A stretch of 20,961 bases of DNA, taken from a virus. A program made the translations under genes and the position numbers. This document shows positions 3,565 to 15,886 of the stretch, in pieces; the first letter of the stretch is position 1; every line of letters begins with the position of its first letter. Under the pieces are notes generated by a model, which was given only the letters and a program-made list of their open reading frames with translations, did no database searches and was not told the DNA's origin. The stretch covers positions 1 to 20,961 of the IMG/VR virus record IMGVR_UViG_3300027791_000163; one strand, given 5' to 3'.

Positions 3565-4161
3565 TTATAGAAATTTTTCTAATCCGCCTACTACTTTTTT
3601 CTTAGCACGTTTTTTAAGTTCTTTTCCAAACTGTTTAATCTTATCGTCATTGTATCTAATTCTTTGTGATTTATAACGTACTCTATCAACGATGCCATTT
3701 GAATCTGGATGATCGCCAATTTCCATAAAGGCGCTAGCTCCAGCATAGTCTATATATTTTTCTTTTATTTCTTGCTGCTTCTTCTCTTTAGCTATTCTGC
3801 GCAAAAAGGCAAAGTACACAATTTGTGTAAAGTAAGCAAAGGCGTTTGGTAATCCAGTACGTGTTGCCTTTTTAACATCGTAATTCATTATTGCTTTAAT
3901 ACAATTTTCTACTCCATCCATGACCATTTCTTCGCGGTATGTGTACCCTACGAAATTTGGTTTGTGCGATAATCCTTCTGCAATTTTTAGAAAACATGTG
4001 CCGATATACTCTGTAATTCTAGGCTCATCTACCATCTTTTCACGAGCTTCATTCACAGAGGTGACATAATCTACTACTGACTGGGAAAACTGTTTATTGT
4101 TTACGTAGTGTGGTTTATCCCTAGGTTTAATTTTAGGTTTTTTATTAGGTTCGCTTTTCAT
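3565..4161 (-). CDS. 55: Late-transcription sigma factor gp55
   Basis: gp55 is the phage sigma factor that directs host RNA polymerase to late promoters of the TATAAATA type, together with the sliding clamp. The 198-residue protein (T4: 185) has the diagnostic core: PNFVGYTYREEM at 68-79, a following ENCIKAIMNYD, and FAYFTQIVYFAFLRRI at 108-123, which corresponds to sigma70 region 2. The first 20 residues are lysine and proline rich. The C terminus ends in GGLEKFL, a short hydrophobic and acidic tail like those by which T4 late factors bind the clamp; that role is inferred. Six TATAAATA elements in this window are its likely targets. It has its own sigma70-type promoter, with a predicted 5' leader of only about 8 bases and no ribosome site. 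Confidence 0.95.
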   Translation of the reverse strand: MKSEPNKKPKIKPRDKPHYVNNKQFSQSVVDYVTSVNEAREKMVDEPRITEYIGTCFLKIAEGLSHKPNFVGYTYREEMVMDGVENCIKAIMNYDVKKATRTGLPNAFAYFTQIVYFAFLRRIAKEKKQQEIKEKYIDYAGASAFMEIGDHPDSNGIVDRVRYKSQRIRYNDDKIKQFGKELKKRAKKKVVGGLEKFL

Positions 4162-4175
4162 TATTTTCTGTATCT

Positions 4176-4204
4176 ATTATACTATATTATCACTCAAAAG
4201 TAAA
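4176..4204 (-). promoter_or_regulatory. Sigma70-type promoter for gene 55
   Basis: The minus strand carries -35 TTTACT (4204-4199), a 17-base spacer and a perfect -10 TATAAT (4181-4176). Initiation about 7 bases downstream would fall near 4169, only about 8 bases before the gp55 ATG at 4161. It makes sense for the late sigma factor to be transcribed by host-type holoenzyme before late genes turn on. Its -35 lies at the outer edge of an inverted repeat shared with a divergent promoter. Confidence 0.7.
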
Positions 4205-4241
4205 TAAAAAAAGTTACCCTTTTTCGCACTTTTTTATTTAC
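4200..4241. repeat. Inverted repeat between divergent promoters
   Basis: The left arm (4200-4214, GTAAATAAAAAAAGT) and right arm (4228-4241, ACTTTTTTATTTAC) are complementary over 14 bases with one extra A, around a 13-base centre. The outermost bases of each arm belong to the -35 hexamers of the two divergent promoters. It could be a binding site for a dimeric regulator, or a weak AT-rich bidirectional terminator for the cluster ending at 4295. The sequence does not decide between these. Confidence 0.7.
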
Positions 4242-4265
4242 AACTGTCTGCTTTTTTGGTATAAT
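4237..4265 (+). promoter_or_regulatory. Rightward sigma70-type promoter, antisense to the operon
   Basis: The plus strand carries -35 TTTACA (4237-4242, 5 of 6 consensus), a 17-base spacer and a perfect -10 TATAAT (4260-4265) preceded by TGG (extended -10). It is the best sigma70 match seen in the window, yet points against every gene. A transcript starting near 4272 would run antisense into the 3' end of the Sm-like gene. Just downstream, AAGGAAAGGG precedes ATG 4291 and a six-codon frame, and AAGGAAA/TTTCCTT (4280-4286, 4302-4308) can form a hairpin. Confidence 0.6.
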
Positions 4266-4294
4266 AATTAAAACCAAACAAGGAAAGGGTATGA

Positions 4295-4822
4295 CTAGTT
4301 GTTTCCTTTAAACTTCTTTCTCCATTTAAAATGGTAGTCAGAGGTTGATTCAAATCCATAATCGGGTTTCAAATTCTTTTCAGAACTAATACCGCCATCG
4401 GTTTTCCATTTTTCTTCCTCTTCGTATTCATCTGTTAAATCTTGATTATCAACTGGAGGATTAAACATCTCTTCAATTACTTTACTTATTTCGTCTTTCG
4501 TTAAAACGTTCTTCAATTTCTGAAGTATATAGTATCTATGGTAATCCATTTTTAGATGCATCGGTGTCTCTGTACGACCTACGATCTTATCTCCGACAAG
4601 CTGGATCATTTCATCTTCTTCTGAATCTAACCAACAAGTGAAGTACGCTCTTGCACCTATAACATTAAGTTCTAACGCGTCAGCAATGTATATCACGTTG
4701 TTTTCTTCGTCAGCATCTATTTCTTCTGCCAATATGTAACTGCCGTCCACTAATCGATAGCTCATTATTGCTGCTTCACGCATGTGTTGTTTTAAATCGT
4801 CTGATGGGTTATAATCGCTCAT
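4295..4822 (-). CDS. Sm-like (LSm/Hfq-fold) protein
   Basis: The N-terminal half fits the Sm fold. Residues 22-52 contain YRLVDGSYILAEE, then a D-rich turn, NNVIYIADALEL; this follows the Sm1 pattern of hydrophobic-x-DG, a central D, then N and a hydrophobic strand ending in A-x-E. Residues 73-82 read IQLVGDKIVG, resembling the Sm2 pattern hydrophobic-x-G-D/N-x-I. An Sm-like protein of putative cyanophage origin has, as I recall, been solved structurally from marine metagenomic data, which supports the reading. The remainder (about 95-175) is a helical and then acidic extension ending in a basic KWRKKFKG tail, unusual for Sm proteins of about 80 residues. It starts within the last codons of uvsW (ATGA overlap), so it is translated with the recombination helicase. 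Role, perhaps RNA binding in phage or host regulation, is inferred. Confidence 0.6.
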   Translation of the reverse strand: MSDYNPSDDLKQHMREAAIMSYRLVDGSYILAEEIDADEENNVIYIADALELNVIGARAYFTCWLDSEEDEMIQLVGDKIVGRTETPMHLKMDYHRYYILQKLKNVLTKDEISKVIEEMFNPPVDNQDLTDEYEEEEKWKTDGGISSEKNLKPDYGFESTSDYHFKWRKKFKGNN

Positions 4823-6318
4823 AGTGGCACCTCACTGATTTTATAGTTAAACTTCTCTTTAGTGTATATTTTAACTCGTGCAATTGCGTGATTCAAGGTG
4901 TAGTTCTTAGATTTCTTCCATGACAAATCGTCAGCTAAATCGTAAATAGTCGTCCCTTGACCATCTTCTGTTTTTCTTAATCCTCTTCCGATAGATTGTA
5001 AAACTCTTATTTGTGATTTTGTTGGTGAAGCAAACATTATATTGTGCAGGTTAACTATATTTATACCTGTACTAAAGGTACCCACACTCGCAACAATAAT
5101 CGCGTTCTTTTCCTTTTCAGTAATAGCTCGTATTCTTTCGCGCTCTTCAGCGTTTACTGCACCTGATACAAAGAATACTTTACGTCCTGTGCTTTTGCAT
5201 TTTTCAACAAACATATCGTAAAGAGGCTTACCGTGTTTTTGCACCAGATTGTATAGCACTAAAGAATTCCCCTGCTGATCACACGTAAGATTCACAATAA
5301 ATCGATTACGTTTTTCATGGCTCACGATAAAATCGATTTCATCTTGGTATTTCAGTCCTTTGCATATCTTCTTTTCTTCGTCTGAATACTTTAGTACTAA
5401 ACACTGCACAGTCAATTGTGCTAACGTGTTAGAATCAATCAACTCCTTTGTAGTTGTAACTTTTCGAATAGGTCCGAAATTACCTTCTAACGTCATTTGA
5501 TTAGAGATAGCATCATCAATGGTTCCTGTAGTTCCTATTCGCACGTACGCTTCTGTCAATCGATTCATAATTGTAGTTAACGATTTAGCTTTAAAGGTGT
5601 GAGCTTCATCACCTACTACAAAGCCGTATTGAACAAACCAACTTGCATGTAATTTAATAGCGCTTTGCCATGTAGTAATTACCACTGACTGATCAAAATC
5701 GTGCTTTTCTTTTCCTGAATAAATTCGGTGCACATCTTCTTCTGCAGAAAAGGTACTATCGTTTTTTGAATACTCGTCAAAGTCTTTATACATCTGCTCA
5801 ACCAACGATGTTGTAGGAACTACCACCAGCGCCTTTTTATCCATGTCGTTATCTAAAAAGTATCTTAGTAACATATAGATGATAAGCGATTTACCAGATC
5901 CAGTAGGAGATAACAGTAAACATCTATGGTTTTGCGCAGCGTGGATAAACGCATCTAACTGGTAATCACGAGGTGTAATAGTTTTACCGCCATTCGATAA
6001 AGAAAGATTATTAGCAAATTTTTCTAGTTCTCCCTTTTCTTCGAATAAGGTGTTGTTCTTTAAAGAATCATCATATTCAATTTTGTAGTTTCTTTCGTAA
6101 CAAAACTCTGCTACTCTTTTGAGTAAGCCATAAGGCAAAGTATTAGAACGTCTATCAAACAAACGTATTTTTCCATCCCATAACTTATTTCTATAAGCTG
6201 GCATAAACTTGTATCCTTCAGCGTAAAAGGTAAAGTACTCGCACAACTCCATAAGAAGGCCGGTGTCTTGGCTTTCTAAAAAAATTCGAGATTCGTCTTT
6301 TCTGTGTGCGGTTATCAT
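4819..6318 (-). CDS. uvsW: RNA-DNA and recombination helicase UvsW
   Basis: UvsW is a superfamily 2 helicase that unwinds R-loops and branched DNA, and so switches phage replication from origin-driven to recombination-driven late in infection. The 499 residues match the T4 length (about 502). An N-terminal substrate-binding domain covers roughly 1-110. Motif I PTGSGKS lies at 138-144, motif II DEAH at 237-240 and motif III TTGT at 263-266. A second RecA-like domain ends with motif VI QSIGRGLRK. All helicase motifs are intact. It overlaps the methyltransferase upstream and the Sm-like gene downstream by 4 bases each, giving a coupled cluster. A TATAAATA on the minus strand at 5065-5058 lies inside the gene and may be chance. 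Confidence 0.95.
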   Translation of the reverse strand: MITAHRKDESRIFLESQDTGLLMELCEYFTFYAEGYKFMPAYRNKLWDGKIRLFDRRSNTLPYGLLKRVAEFCYERNYKIEYDDSLKNNTLFEEKGELEKFANNLSLSNGGKTITPRDYQLDAFIHAAQNHRCLLLSPTGSGKSLIIYMLLRYFLDNDMDKKALVVVPTTSLVEQMYKDFDEYSKNDSTFSAEEDVHRIYSGKEKHDFDQSVVITTWQSAIKLHASWFVQYGFVVGDEAHTFKAKSLTTIMNRLTEAYVRIGTTGTIDDAISNQMTLEGNFGPIRKVTTTKELIDSNTLAQLTVQCLVLKYSDEEKKICKGLKYQDEIDFIVSHEKRNRFIVNLTCDQQGNSLVLYNLVQKHGKPLYDMFVEKCKSTGRKVFFVSGAVNAEERERIRAITEKEKNAIIVASVGTFSTGINIVNLHNIMFASPTKSQIRVLQSIGRGLRKTEDGQGTTIYDLADDLSWKKSKNYTLNHAIARVKIYTKEKFNYKISEVPL

Positions 6319-6818
6319 CTTTTATAAAAATACCAAGACGGAAAATTATCAACATCGTTTGTTACGTTAAGTGACCACGGAACAATGTTATCGATGTTTT
6401 TATTATAAAAAGCATCTACTCTTTTTATAGTTTCAGCGTATTTCTTGCAATAGTCATGGCCTGAAAATATACCTCCAACTTTTAATTTTGGCCACCAATC
6501 ATACAGTGTTTTTCCATCGTCTTGTCCGGTATGTGCATATCCATCTATGTAAATAAAATCGAAAAAGTTATCTTCAAACTTATTCACAAATTGCTCAAAT
6601 GTGCCATGCATAATTTTTACATTAGGAACAAGTTTTTTTGCAGATTTCATTTCATCATCAGTATGACCTCTGCTATTCCACATATCTATTCCATAAAGTG
6701 TTTTAAATTTTTTAGAATCGTATAACACCTTTGTATAAGAAGCTGCAGCAACGCCTAATTCTATCCCAATAGAATTATTTTGTAACAGATCTGGTAAATT
6801 TTTTCTTGCCTTTAGCAT
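6315..6818 (-). CDS. Class I SAM-dependent methyltransferase
   Basis: The 167-residue protein has a Rossmann methyltransferase layout. A glycine motif, IGIELGVAAASYTK at 17-30, would bind S-adenosylmethionine. An acidic residue (D45 in YGIDMW) ends strand 2. FDFIYIDGYAHTG at 86-98 and a following KVGGIFSGHDY at 113-123 are typical of the Methyltransf_24 group, whose members usually act on small molecules or sugars rather than on DNA; no DNA-amino-methyltransferase DPPY motif is seen. The substrate is unknown. Its ATG shares a base with the uvsY stop (TAATG), and its stop overlaps the uvsW start (ATGA), so it is embedded in the recombination operon rather than inserted loosely. It is complete and close to the minimal length for the fold. 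Confidence 0.8.
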   Translation of the reverse strand: MLKARKNLPDLLQNNSIGIELGVAAASYTKVLYDSKKFKTLYGIDMWNSRGHTDDEMKSAKKLVPNVKIMHGTFEQFVNKFEDNFFDFIYIDGYAHTGQDDGKTLYDWWPKLKVGGIFSGHDYCKKYAETIKRVDAFYNKNIDNIVPWSLNVTNDVDNFPSWYFYKR

Positions 6819-7267
6819 TACATTCCAGAAGTAAACTTCTTAAAATCAATAATGTTCCTGATGTGGGTGTGCCTCCAGCGTATGTTGCCCATGATTTCTT
6901 CAAGAGTATCAATGATAGTTTTCTGATAATCTATCTGTGCTTTAATCCGCACCATATCTTTATCAGTGGAGTAGTACATGTCCATGTCGCTCTTTAATGG
7001 TTTAGTCATACCATCGAATGGATCATATTTCCATTTACGGTTGTCCATGTCTTCTTGCGACATCTTACCGTTATAGTAAAGCCACTTATCCTTTTTCATG
7101 GATTCTTGTTCCATTTCTTTTTTCTTTAGCATAAGCTTAGCCATTGAAAAAAGTTCAAGGTATTTGGCGTGTAATTTAGAAGACTTTATTGTTTCATCAT
7201 CTAAACATACGTCATCGATGATTGTGTCTTTCTTCCACATCTCTAGGATTTGTTCCAAGTTAATCAT
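6818..7267 (-). CDS. uvsY: Recombination mediator UvsY
   Basis: UvsY loads the UvsX recombinase onto single-stranded DNA covered by gp32. The 149 residues (T4: 137) align by eye with T4 UvsY along the length: an N-terminal LEQILEMWKKDTIID, a central helix rich in K and E followed by YYNGK (T4: YYSGR), then STDKDMVRIKAQIDY (T4: SADKDVLKVDTSLQY) and a C-terminal HIRNIIDFKKFTSG (T4: HIQDMRAFEAG). The identification rests on this remembered alignment and on the position next to uvsW. It ends in a TAATG junction with the methyltransferase. Upstream, AATAAATA at 7285-7278 is a near match to the late element, 10 bases before the ATG, and no good ribosome site is visible. Confidence 0.88.
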   Translation of the reverse strand: MINLEQILEMWKKDTIIDDVCLDDETIKSSKLHAKYLELFSMAKLMLKKKEMEQESMKKDKWLYYNGKMSQEDMDNRKWKYDPFDGMTKPLKSDMDMYYSTDKDMVRIKAQIDYQKTIIDTLEEIMGNIRWRHTHIRNIIDFKKFTSGM

Positions 7268-7286
7268 AATATAAAGTTATTTATTC

Positions 7287-7772
7287 TTATTTTATAATGT
7301 CATATTCAGTGTATCTAAATGTAACATCTGCCTGCAAATATTCAACATCTGTATTTTGAGTACTAAACTCAACACCACCAATAGTGGTAGGGAATGCATC
7401 CCTGAATTGAAATTGTTTCGTAACGTTATTATGGCTTGACAAAACAGATAGAATCATGTCGTGTCTTTCTATCTGACCTTTATTCGAACCTTGATTAGAA
7501 TTGCTTTTTAGCCAATCGTATATTTCGTTATAGTTTTTCATATCTTCATCAATCGCAAATCGAATTGACAAATCACCAAACTGTCTAGGCTCGCCTGATT
7601 CGTACGATATCACACCACGATATCGTGTTTCAACCGCAGATACCGCGATGTCTGGTATAGAAAAAGACGTGATAAAGTATTCGGTGTTCGCGAACTTTTC
7701 ACGGTTGATCGTAAGTTTAAAACCAGTTGGTGCTAAAAGATTGATATTACTTGTTAAGTTTGTTCCAGCCAT
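7287..7772 (-). CDS. Second tail-tube-like structural protein (gp19-related; position of gp3)
   Basis: The 161 residues share the pattern of the gp19 tail-tube family with the gp19 of this same window. Both have a P-x-x-x-V-x-x-VE/IE-x-x-YRG segment (here near 40-53), a region with D and W in the middle, the block F/I-R-D-A-F-P followed by a hydrophobic strand (here FRDAFP at 123-128, in gp19 IRDAFP at 134-139), and a C-terminal FRYTEYDI-like strand. In related marine T4-like genomes this slot after gene 23 is, from memory, often annotated as gp3, the tail-tube terminator. A tube-like terminator or initiator is therefore plausible; it is unlikely to be a spare copy of gp19, as identity is low. 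It has its own late promoter ending five bases before the ATG. Confidence 0.7.
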   Translation of the reverse strand: MAGTNLTSNINLLAPTGFKLTINREKFANTEYFITSFSIPDIAVSAVETRYRGVISYESGEPRQFGDLSIRFAIDEDMKNYNEIYDWLKSNSNQGSNKGQIERHDMILSVLSSHNNVTKQFQFRDAFPTTIGGVEFSTQNTDVEYLQADVTFRYTEYDIIK

Positions 7773-7777
7773 ATATC

Positions 7778-7785
7778 TATTTATA
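7778..7785 (-). promoter_or_regulatory. Late promoter TATAAATA for the gp19-like gene
   Basis: A perfect T4-type late -10 octamer on the minus strand, followed by GATAT and then ATG 7772. With the usual late start site six bases after the octamer, the first transcribed base would be the A of the ATG. It follows directly on the gp23 terminator. Confidence 0.85.
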
Positions 7786-7789
7786 ACGC

Positions 7790-7821
7790 AAAAAAAGAGG
7801 AGCTCCGAAGAACTCCTCTTT
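7790..7821 (-). terminator. Rho-independent terminator after gene 23
   Basis: On the minus strand AAAGAGGAGTTC (7821-7810) pairs with GAGCTCCTCTTT (7805-7794) through 12 pairs with one G-U, closing a C(UUCG)G tetraloop at 7809-7806. Seven T residues follow (7796-7790, the first three shared with the stem). The stem, stable tetraloop and T tract make a textbook intrinsic terminator, 31 bases past the gp23 stop. Confidence 0.93.
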
Positions 7822-7852
7822 AAGTTTAAAGGTTGCTTTAACCGATATCTAA

Positions 7853-9172
7853 TTAGATACCAACAACACCGAACTTACGGTAGTATTGATTCAGGTTAGA
7901 TGTGTTACCAGCCGCGCCGCCACTTGCAGTTACAAATGGGTTTGTTGCGATTCCGTAACGAGTCTTGAATGCAATCTTAGGTTGGAAAGTATTTTCTCCA
8001 ACTGCTTTGATCATTGTAAGAGGTACGTATGGGCAGTAGAATATACCTGCATCATAAGCACTATCTCCCTTATAACCTACCACTGCGTAATCACCGACAG
8101 CGTATGGATCAACATACACCTTAAGTGAACCATTAAGAACACCAGCAAATGTGTTACCAGTTGAGTCTACATTCAAGGAGCCATCGCCACCGAATGTTAA
8201 CTTACCAGCACCAGCAAGAGCAGAAGCTACGTTTGAAGAACAGATAACGAAGTTACCTTTTCCACGACGTGTTTCTTCAGCAATCTTGTTTGCTTCTTTC
8301 TCAATAGCGAATGCAAGGTACTGATATTTTTCAACTGCCCAACGGCCAATTGAATCATTACTTGCTGATAGGTCTAACTTAGCGGTGTTTTGGACACCAG
8401 TTACACCAAGCTTAGCTTGTTTGATGATTGTACGGATAATTTCACGATTGATTTCACCGAGAATTTCACCAGATAGGATGTTAGCCAATTCGGCTTCAGC
8501 GTCAAGACCATGAACTGCTTTCAAGTCTTGTGCCATTTCCATTGTGTATTCAGCTTTCAGTTGGCGTGTTTTAGCTTCAACAACTGTCTTGGACAGTGTG
8601 AAACCCATTTCACCAGCAATGTTAGCGTCTTCTGAATCTTCTACATTGAAACCGATATTGTCGGCATCAAAAATAGCTTCTGCAGAAGCATCTGTTGTAA
8701 CGTCTGAGTTGAATGCACCAGTATTACCAGTGTTAGTACCTGTACCTGCACCAGCAACATCACCAGGTTCTACACCTGGTGCGAATGCTGCAGCGTCTGC
8801 ACTTGTGATACCAGCTGTTGAGTTAGACTCATGGCGTGGTTCCATTGCGAAGATAAGACCAGTAGGACCAGACATTGGCTGGACACCTGCTACATCATAA
8901 GCAATAAGGTTTGGCATTGCACGGCGTACAAGCGAGATAAGGATTGGATCAAATCCAGTTCCTTGACCAGGCATATTACCAGATGAAGTATCTGTACCTA
9001 GTCCTTCATTCAAAGAATAGCTGGAATGCGCGTTTTCTTCTCTAATAGCCTTTTCGGTATTTTCGAGAAGCTTAGCGGTTACAGCTTTCTTGTAGCGATC
9101 TGTGATCGGTGCAGCATCAGCATGTTCTAATACTGGTGCCCACTTTTTAATTTCTTTTTCTGCGTTTAACAT
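7853..9172 (-). CDS. 23: Major capsid protein gp23
   Basis: This is the main shell protein of the prohead, HK97 fold. The 439 residues are shorter than T4 gp23 (521) but in the marine range. The N-terminal region is a helical propeptide; the prohead protease consensus (I/L)-x-E occurs as LNE at 54-56, near where T4 gp23 is cut (after residue 65), although LLE (35-37) and IRE (43-45) also fit. The segment PILISLVRRAMPNLIAYDVAGVQPMSGPTG at about 75-104 is split here for naming only; its LVRRAMPNLIA and VQPMSGPTG parts are the gp23 hallmark. The C terminus has the conserved TRYGI and NPF. A ribosome site AAAAAAGGAA precedes the ATG. No exact TATAAATA lies in the 44 bases upstream, so its promoter may be inside gene 22 or diverged. 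A strong terminator follows. Confidence 0.96.
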   Translation of the reverse strand: MLNAEKEIKKWAPVLEHADAAPITDRYKKAVTAKLLENTEKAIREENAHSSYSLNEGLGTDTSSGNMPGQGTGFDPILISLVRRAMPNLIAYDVAGVQPMSGPTGLIFAMEPRHESNSTAGITSADAAAFAPGVEPGDVAGAGTGTNTGNTGAFNSDVTTDASAEAIFDADNIGFNVEDSEDANIAGEMGFTLSKTVVEAKTRQLKAEYTMEMAQDLKAVHGLDAEAELANILSGEILGEINREIIRTIIKQAKLGVTGVQNTAKLDLSASNDSIGRWAVEKYQYLAFAIEKEANKIAEETRRGKGNFVICSSNVASALAGAGKLTFGGDGSLNVDSTGNTFAGVLNGSLKVYVDPYAVGDYAVVGYKGDSAYDAGIFYCPYVPLTMIKAVGENTFQPKIAFKTRYGIATNPFVTASGGAAGNTSNLNQYYRKFGVVGI

Positions 9173-15874: not shown

Positions 15875-15886
15875 TATTTATAAATA
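15875..15886. promoter_or_regulatory. Late promoter for gene 18, palindromic TATTTATAAATA
   Basis: The minus-strand octamer TATAAATA (15882-15875) is 73 bases before the gp18 ATG and 12 bases beyond the gene 17 stop. Four more bases make the site a perfect 12-base palindrome, so the plus strand also reads TATAAATA (15879-15886), pointing into gene 17. The minus-strand function is well supported; plus-strand use is open. Confidence 0.8.

Follow-up and report, generated by a model that had tools for sequence, protein, structure and literature searches.

The gp55 upstream region of the window

The window, meaning the whole stretch of DNA that was analysed (20,961 nucleotides, 21 kb), belongs to a marine T4-like phage and carries all its main genes on the minus strand, in the order gp46, gp47, gp55, Sm-like, uvsW, uvsY, gp23, gp22, gp21, gp20, gp19, gp18 and gp17, and on to gp13. 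The nearest named phage found was C48C1 (Kyanoviridae), with a gp55 identity of 54%, and the gene names other than gp55 were assigned from gene order and resemblance to this phage. The Sm-like protein of the window is fast-evolving, with no Pfam match and a weak PHROG match, although its cyanophage counterpart matches Sm_like (PF16243) strongly.

Between the stop of the Sm-like gene (4295) and the start of gp55 (4161) lies a 133-base gap that houses two promoters (Table 1). An earlier note on this DNA had described a divergent pair, each with a TATAAT box and a 17-base spacer, and with -35 hexamers TTTACT (left) and TTTACA (right). All of these elements were found where the note had placed them, and the -35 pair and the -10 pair are indeed both centred on 4220.5. 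Both promoters have the near-consensus hexamers and the 16-18 bp spacing of sigma70-type early phage promoters. The left one lies directly upstream of gp55, which it would serve, as the note proposed, from a predicted start at ~4169, and it is conserved in relatives. The right one has an extended -10, its spacer ending in TGG, and a predicted start at ~4272. It has no gene in its direction, again as proposed, and would yield RNA antisense to the Sm-like gene, whose 3' end is overlapped by the predicted transcript, and to uvsW. On the plus strand downstream of it, no listed ORF of at least 40 codons begins nearby, and no intrinsic terminator was found from 4272 to 8676.

Scored with an E. coli-like matrix, on which all promoter calls depend, the plus promoter ranks first among the sigma70-like sites of the first 20 kb (11/12 matches). 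When the gap was shuffled preserving dinucleotides (n = 3000), the minus score was reached 53 times and the plus score 7 times, and both together in 0/3000.

Table 1. Features of the gp55 upstream region in the window and predicted antisense starts in cultured cyanophages
Feature	Position	Strand	Basis or remark
gp55 late sigma factor gene	3565..4161	-	phrog_234, E=9.5e-53; tblastn to annotated gp55
gp55 sense early sigma70 promoter (predicted)	4176..4204	-	-35 TTTACT 4204-4199, 17-bp spacer, -10 TATAAT 4181-4176
Inverted repeat	4200..4241	.	perfect 12-bp arms 4200-4211 / 4230-4241 (GTAAATAAAAAA / TTTTTTATTTAC)
Antisense sigma70 promoter (predicted)	4237..4265	+	-35 TTTACA 4237-4242, 17-bp spacer, -10 TATAAT 4260-4265
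Predicted antisense RNA start region	4266..4294	+	from antisense -10 to Sm-like stop; A-rich then purine-rich (AATTAAAACCAAACAAGGAAAGGG)
Sm-like gene (T4-GC 139 position)	4295..4822	-	weak phrog_471, E=0.004; position as the P-SSM4 Sm_like PF16243 protein
uvsW helicase gene	4819..6318	-	DNA match to cyanophage uvsW; the predicted antisense RNA would reach it next
Late-promoter-like motif AATAAATA	7278..7285	-	upstream of uvsY
Predicted antisense start, Syn9	DQ149023.2 ~123698	-	sequence prediction
Predicted antisense start, S-PM2	AJ630128.1 ~84439	-	sequence prediction
Predicted antisense start, P-HM2	NC_015284.1 ~120709	-	sequence prediction

Conservation of the promoter pair in relatives

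Four scans of viral contigs for gp55, together with named phages, gave 332 loci. In 292 of them the gap upstream of gp55 could be used, and 147 regions remained after similar sequences were removed. An antisense sigma70 promoter scoring at least 11 was present in 82% of these dereplicated regions, compared with 0.5% in shuffles and 7% in the other intergenic gaps sampled from the same loci (n = 54). The sense gp55 promoter was rarer than the antisense one (66%), and both promoters scored above 8.3 in 136 of the 147 regions. The named carriers of the antisense promoter are S-MbCM100, P-RSM4, P-SSM4, S-SSM7, S-CAM9, S-SM2, Sf-CH3 and C48C1, as well as the pelagiphage HTVC008M and the cyanophages Syn9, P-HM2 and S-PM2. 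It was absent from Caulobacter phage Cr30 and from the T4-type phage RB27, where the gene neighbourhood differs too. In P-HM2 (L356), a terminator-like hairpin and T run (CCCCGCTTGACAGCAGGGTTTTTTT, ~25740-25790) lies across the gp55 sense -35.

The check suggested by the earlier note was run, and the right-hand -10 and -35 are kept in relatives while the flanks drift. Loss of the right promoter where the gp55 promoter is kept was confined to a few loci, with only 5 of the 147 dereplicated regions below 8.3 for the antisense promoter. Among these, the representatives L008 and L010 belong to one subclade with a shortened gap; L070 and L325, like this subclade, lack the antisense promoter. In two other loci (L027 and L036) a gene has been inserted between the promoter pair and gp55, and the pair still adjoins the Sm-like stop. 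The inserted gene is small and has an N-terminal signal-like stretch.

Nearly all relatives retain both promoters, cultured cyanophages and a pelagiphage among them, so the antisense promoter very probably has a function and did not arise by accident. An antisense start without a role could nevertheless be a by-product, as A/T-rich promoter DNA tends to fire both ways; the window gap is A/T-rich, and the symmetry of DNA makes bidirectional promoters widespread in prokaryotes (PMC12825309). We consider this very unlikely. In known bidirectional promoters the -10 elements are shared or overlapping and the starts lie 10-23 bp from each other, whereas here separate full hexamers are found and the starts would be ~103 bp apart. 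The antisense promoter is also conserved at least as well as the sense one across deep divergence, and the two promoters persist despite the turnover of everything in between.

Spacing, symmetry and the start of the predicted antisense RNA

The 14-base inverted repeat of the earlier note is present, with the qualification that its ungapped perfect length is 12 and that 14 is reached only with a one-base bulge. A 12-base arm arises in 1 of 300 shuffles. Along with the -35 boxes, the arms include the A/T tracts that precede them. As the hexamers lie within the arms, the symmetric -35s and the inverted repeat count as one fact and not several. A reading of the repeat as a late promoter, from the likeness of GTAAATAA to TATAAATA, was discarded, as relatives carry TGTACA or TTGACA there.

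The note had also suggested joint control by one dimeric factor, and no support was obtained for such a factor acting at a dyad of fixed spacing. The gap from -35 to -35 ranges from -16 to +58 bp among relatives, so the common centre is not conserved and the constant half-site spacing of a fixed dimer operator is lacking. At a gap of -16 the boxes are crossed, and at -7 a single near-palindromic box (for example ACTTGTCAAGT) serves both directions. The remaining gaps cluster near 3, 14, 24, 34, 45 and 55.

This clustering follows the helical repeat. For gaps of 1-59 bp (n = 78), Rayleigh R was 0.51 at 10.5 bp, the best period within 7-15, and the distances from promoter to neighbouring gene, used as a control, showed no 10.5-bp phasing. 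Shuffles and jitter model relatedness incompletely, and the contrast of tree-independent pairs corrects for it in part: 44 such pairs had unequal gaps, and in the 39 that differed by at least 6 bp, whole turns were preferred (mean cosine 0.34, p = 0.001). By group, the phasing was strong in the HTVC008M-like relatives (R 0.74) and in the distant ones (0.59). Cyanophages were borderline (0.48, n = 13) and the window's own clade showed none (R 0.14, n = 18); phasing is therefore not claimed for the window itself. It does hint that two clades have some architecture in common.

One phage or host factor bound on one helix face could regulate both promoters as a joint switch, in which case the antisense RNA would be of little weight. 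The stepped gaps and their recurrence in the pair contrasts favour such a switch, as does a dyad with a near-invariant TGT found only at the antisense start in the cyanophage and pelagiphage groups. It is unlikely, however, given that strong phasing is limited to two groups, and A/T tracts located before each -35, at ~5, 15 and 25 bp, could produce the phasing as alpha-CTD sites of the polymerase common to both promoters, with no added factor. Co-varying -35 pairs (TTTACA/TGTACA/TTGACA) were also considered as a special operator and rejected, as ordinary early promoters on the same contigs use those types.

The dyad is short and occurs in groups L085-L255 and L256-L335 (for example L334, L318 and L088), with its TGT 5-6 bases past the antisense -10. 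TGT stands at a fixed place after the antisense -10 in 99 of 104 loci of the cyanophage and HTVC008M-like groups, and on the sense side in 0 of 104. The arms of the dyad vary, and 36 different perfect forms were counted. Perfect stems of at least 4 occur in 51% and 54% of the two groups compared with 10% of shuffles, and sense leaders show no excess. The dyad is mostly missing from the window's clade. With a start 7 bases past the -10, the left arm is left untranscribed, so the dyad would be either an operator evolving with its protein or a structure of single-strand DNA. That it forms a hairpin in the sense 3'-UTR is unlikely, as G-T pairs are enriched and A-C mismatches are not, though base composition confounds this comparison. 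Drawing these features together, it is possible, if rather doubtful, that a switch runs through the whole marine T4-like family, in which selection holds the promoters on one helix face, linking production of the late sigma factor with antisense transcription across the late uvsW operon, and the covarying start-site dyad (near-invariant TGT at +1) either is recognised by a phage factor or folds in single-strand DNA or RNA.

The start region of the window resembles its counterparts in the near clade. The earlier note had raised a phage regulatory RNA, structured from ~4272 rightwards, and such an RNA, or one acting in trans, would gain from the conserved start-site dyad in two other clades. It is nonetheless highly improbable. 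The folding of the window's antisense leader was not clearly beyond chance (z -1.6 and -1.2 against shuffles), an Rfam search of the predicted RNA matched no family, synonymous diversity in three groups showed no clear drop towards the 3' end of the Sm-like gene, and a normal start site leaves the 5' arm of the dyad untranscribed. A small antisense ORF was rejected as well: the only ATG frame in the window is one of 6 codons and, by eye, no start codon is shared across groups. Antisense frames over the Sm-like 3' end likewise appear to be chance. With no gene, no Rfam match and no clear fold or synonymous constraint, any function of the predicted RNA is likely to be in cis, through complementarity or the act of transcription.

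The late/early junction and comparison with known systems

Late motifs (TATAAATA, AATAAATA) are found on the gene strand before gp13, gp18, gp19, gp20, the 11377 ORF, gp19b and uvsY, and none precedes gp55 in the window. As these motifs lie to the right only, the pair appears from sequence to sit at the junction of the late structural block and the early replication block that starts with gp55, with an extra promoter aimed at the late side. At 15875-15886, two late motifs overlap divergently, TATAAATA on the minus strand (15875) feeding gp18 and TATAAATA on the plus strand (15879) directed into gp17; the latter is a second wrong-way promoter-like site in the window, of the late type.

Over 150 kb of C48C1, 16 intergenic sigma70-type promoters were gene-wise and four were on the reverse strand, the gp55 antisense promoter being the strongest of the four (12.7; next 10.2); the first gene-wise sigma70 promoter past the late block is that of gp55. 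In 49-kb stretches of Syn9 and P-HM2, the antisense gp55 promoter was the sole reverse-strand site scoring at least 11.5, and the promoter-like sites that run against the genes in several IMG/VR contigs are those at gp55. HTVC008M (L094) has other antisense promoter-like sites, within genes, at 23.5 kb and 97.3 kb. At 23511-23571 of this phage, two strong sigma70-like promoters are antisense to the baseplate lysozyme gene and are a possible anti-late source.

The antisense promoter of gp55 points into uvsY-uvsW-Sm-like, faces late genes and has no gene its way, as would a cis-antisense, anti-late source. We consider it slightly better than an even chance that this is a conserved divergent early promoter pair at the late/early junction, of which the right one yields an anti-late antisense RNA. 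The sequence itself establishes that the promoters are there, where they lie and that relatives keep them, and we infer their firing, its timing and its antisense effect as follows. Early in infection, both promoters would be read by a host-type sigma70 RNA polymerase, the left giving gp55 mRNA and the right a non-coding early transcript, antisense to the final part of the late operon (gp13...gp23-uvsY-uvsW-Sm-like). Rightward polymerases could collide with, or silence, transcription of uvsY-uvsW-Sm-like, and could also block read-through of the late operon into gp55. Once gp55 displaces sigma70, both promoters would go silent and late promoters would take over. UvsW of T4 clears R-loops at origins late in infection (PMC3016281), and early silence of the uvsW operon would be sensible for this reason; that uvsW is late in the window phage is suggested by the motifs and by this analogy.

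Another possibility is that the antisense transcript primes a T4-type R-loop origin, as at oriF/oriG, beside uvsW, whose product would later remove it. T4 origins require a promoter and an easily unwound stretch, and oriE apparently has an early promoter (PMC3016281); the present locus is A/T-rich and adjoins uvsY/uvsW, and in several clades the predicted antisense transcript opens with A-rich and then purine-rich sequence. However, the third-position GC skew of C48C1 has no sign change at gp55 (21.4 kb), and T4-type RB27 is without the promoter pair. An origin here is quite unlikely, and the idea is weaker than that of an anti-late antisense RNA.

If the anti-late antisense RNA is made, it would bear on the timing of the late-gene switch in cyanophages and pelagiphages. 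Phage antisense promoters that are conserved have seldom been demonstrated, and the pair offers, at the late sigma factor gene itself, a candidate regulatory site that is precisely located and widely conserved. Coordinates are given (Table 1) in cultured Syn9, S-PM2 and P-HM2, whose infections have transcriptomic studies.

Anti-late RNA of T4 is the classical early RNA complementary to late messages. The predicted RNA would likewise be transcribed early, on the strand opposite to late genes, and differs in that a defined, conserved candidate source promoter is proposed here. Early sigma70 promoters of T4 (UP/-35/TGn/-10; Hinton 2010, PMC2988021) share with the pair the A/T-rich upstream DNA, near-consensus -35 and -10 and, for the antisense promoter, the TGn, whereas here the promoters stand back to back, one of them geneless, fixed at one place across a virus family. 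Cyanomyoviruses are without MotA and Asi homologues (PMC2984593). The oriF/oriG origins of T4 (PMC3016281) are similar in that a promoter lies next to uvs genes and its transcript could act as a replication primer; the present locus, by contrast, is not known to act as an origin, and the skew test gave no support.

The bidirectional promoters of Warman et al. (PMC12825309) likewise send divergent transcription out of one intergenic DNA, with one shared -10 and starts 10-23 bp apart. The window has two complete promoters with predicted starts ~103 bp apart and separate -10s (4176-4181 and 4260-4265). In the cyanophage pair, as in Warman et al., the promoters overlap and should be mutually exclusive; the overlap is through the -35. 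A further known case is CfrI, an antisense RNA opposite a functional gene in the T4-like cyanophage S-PM2 (PMC2984593, PMC5931967). CfrI lies at psbA, whereas the antisense RNA predicted here would arise at the junction before gp55, family-wide.
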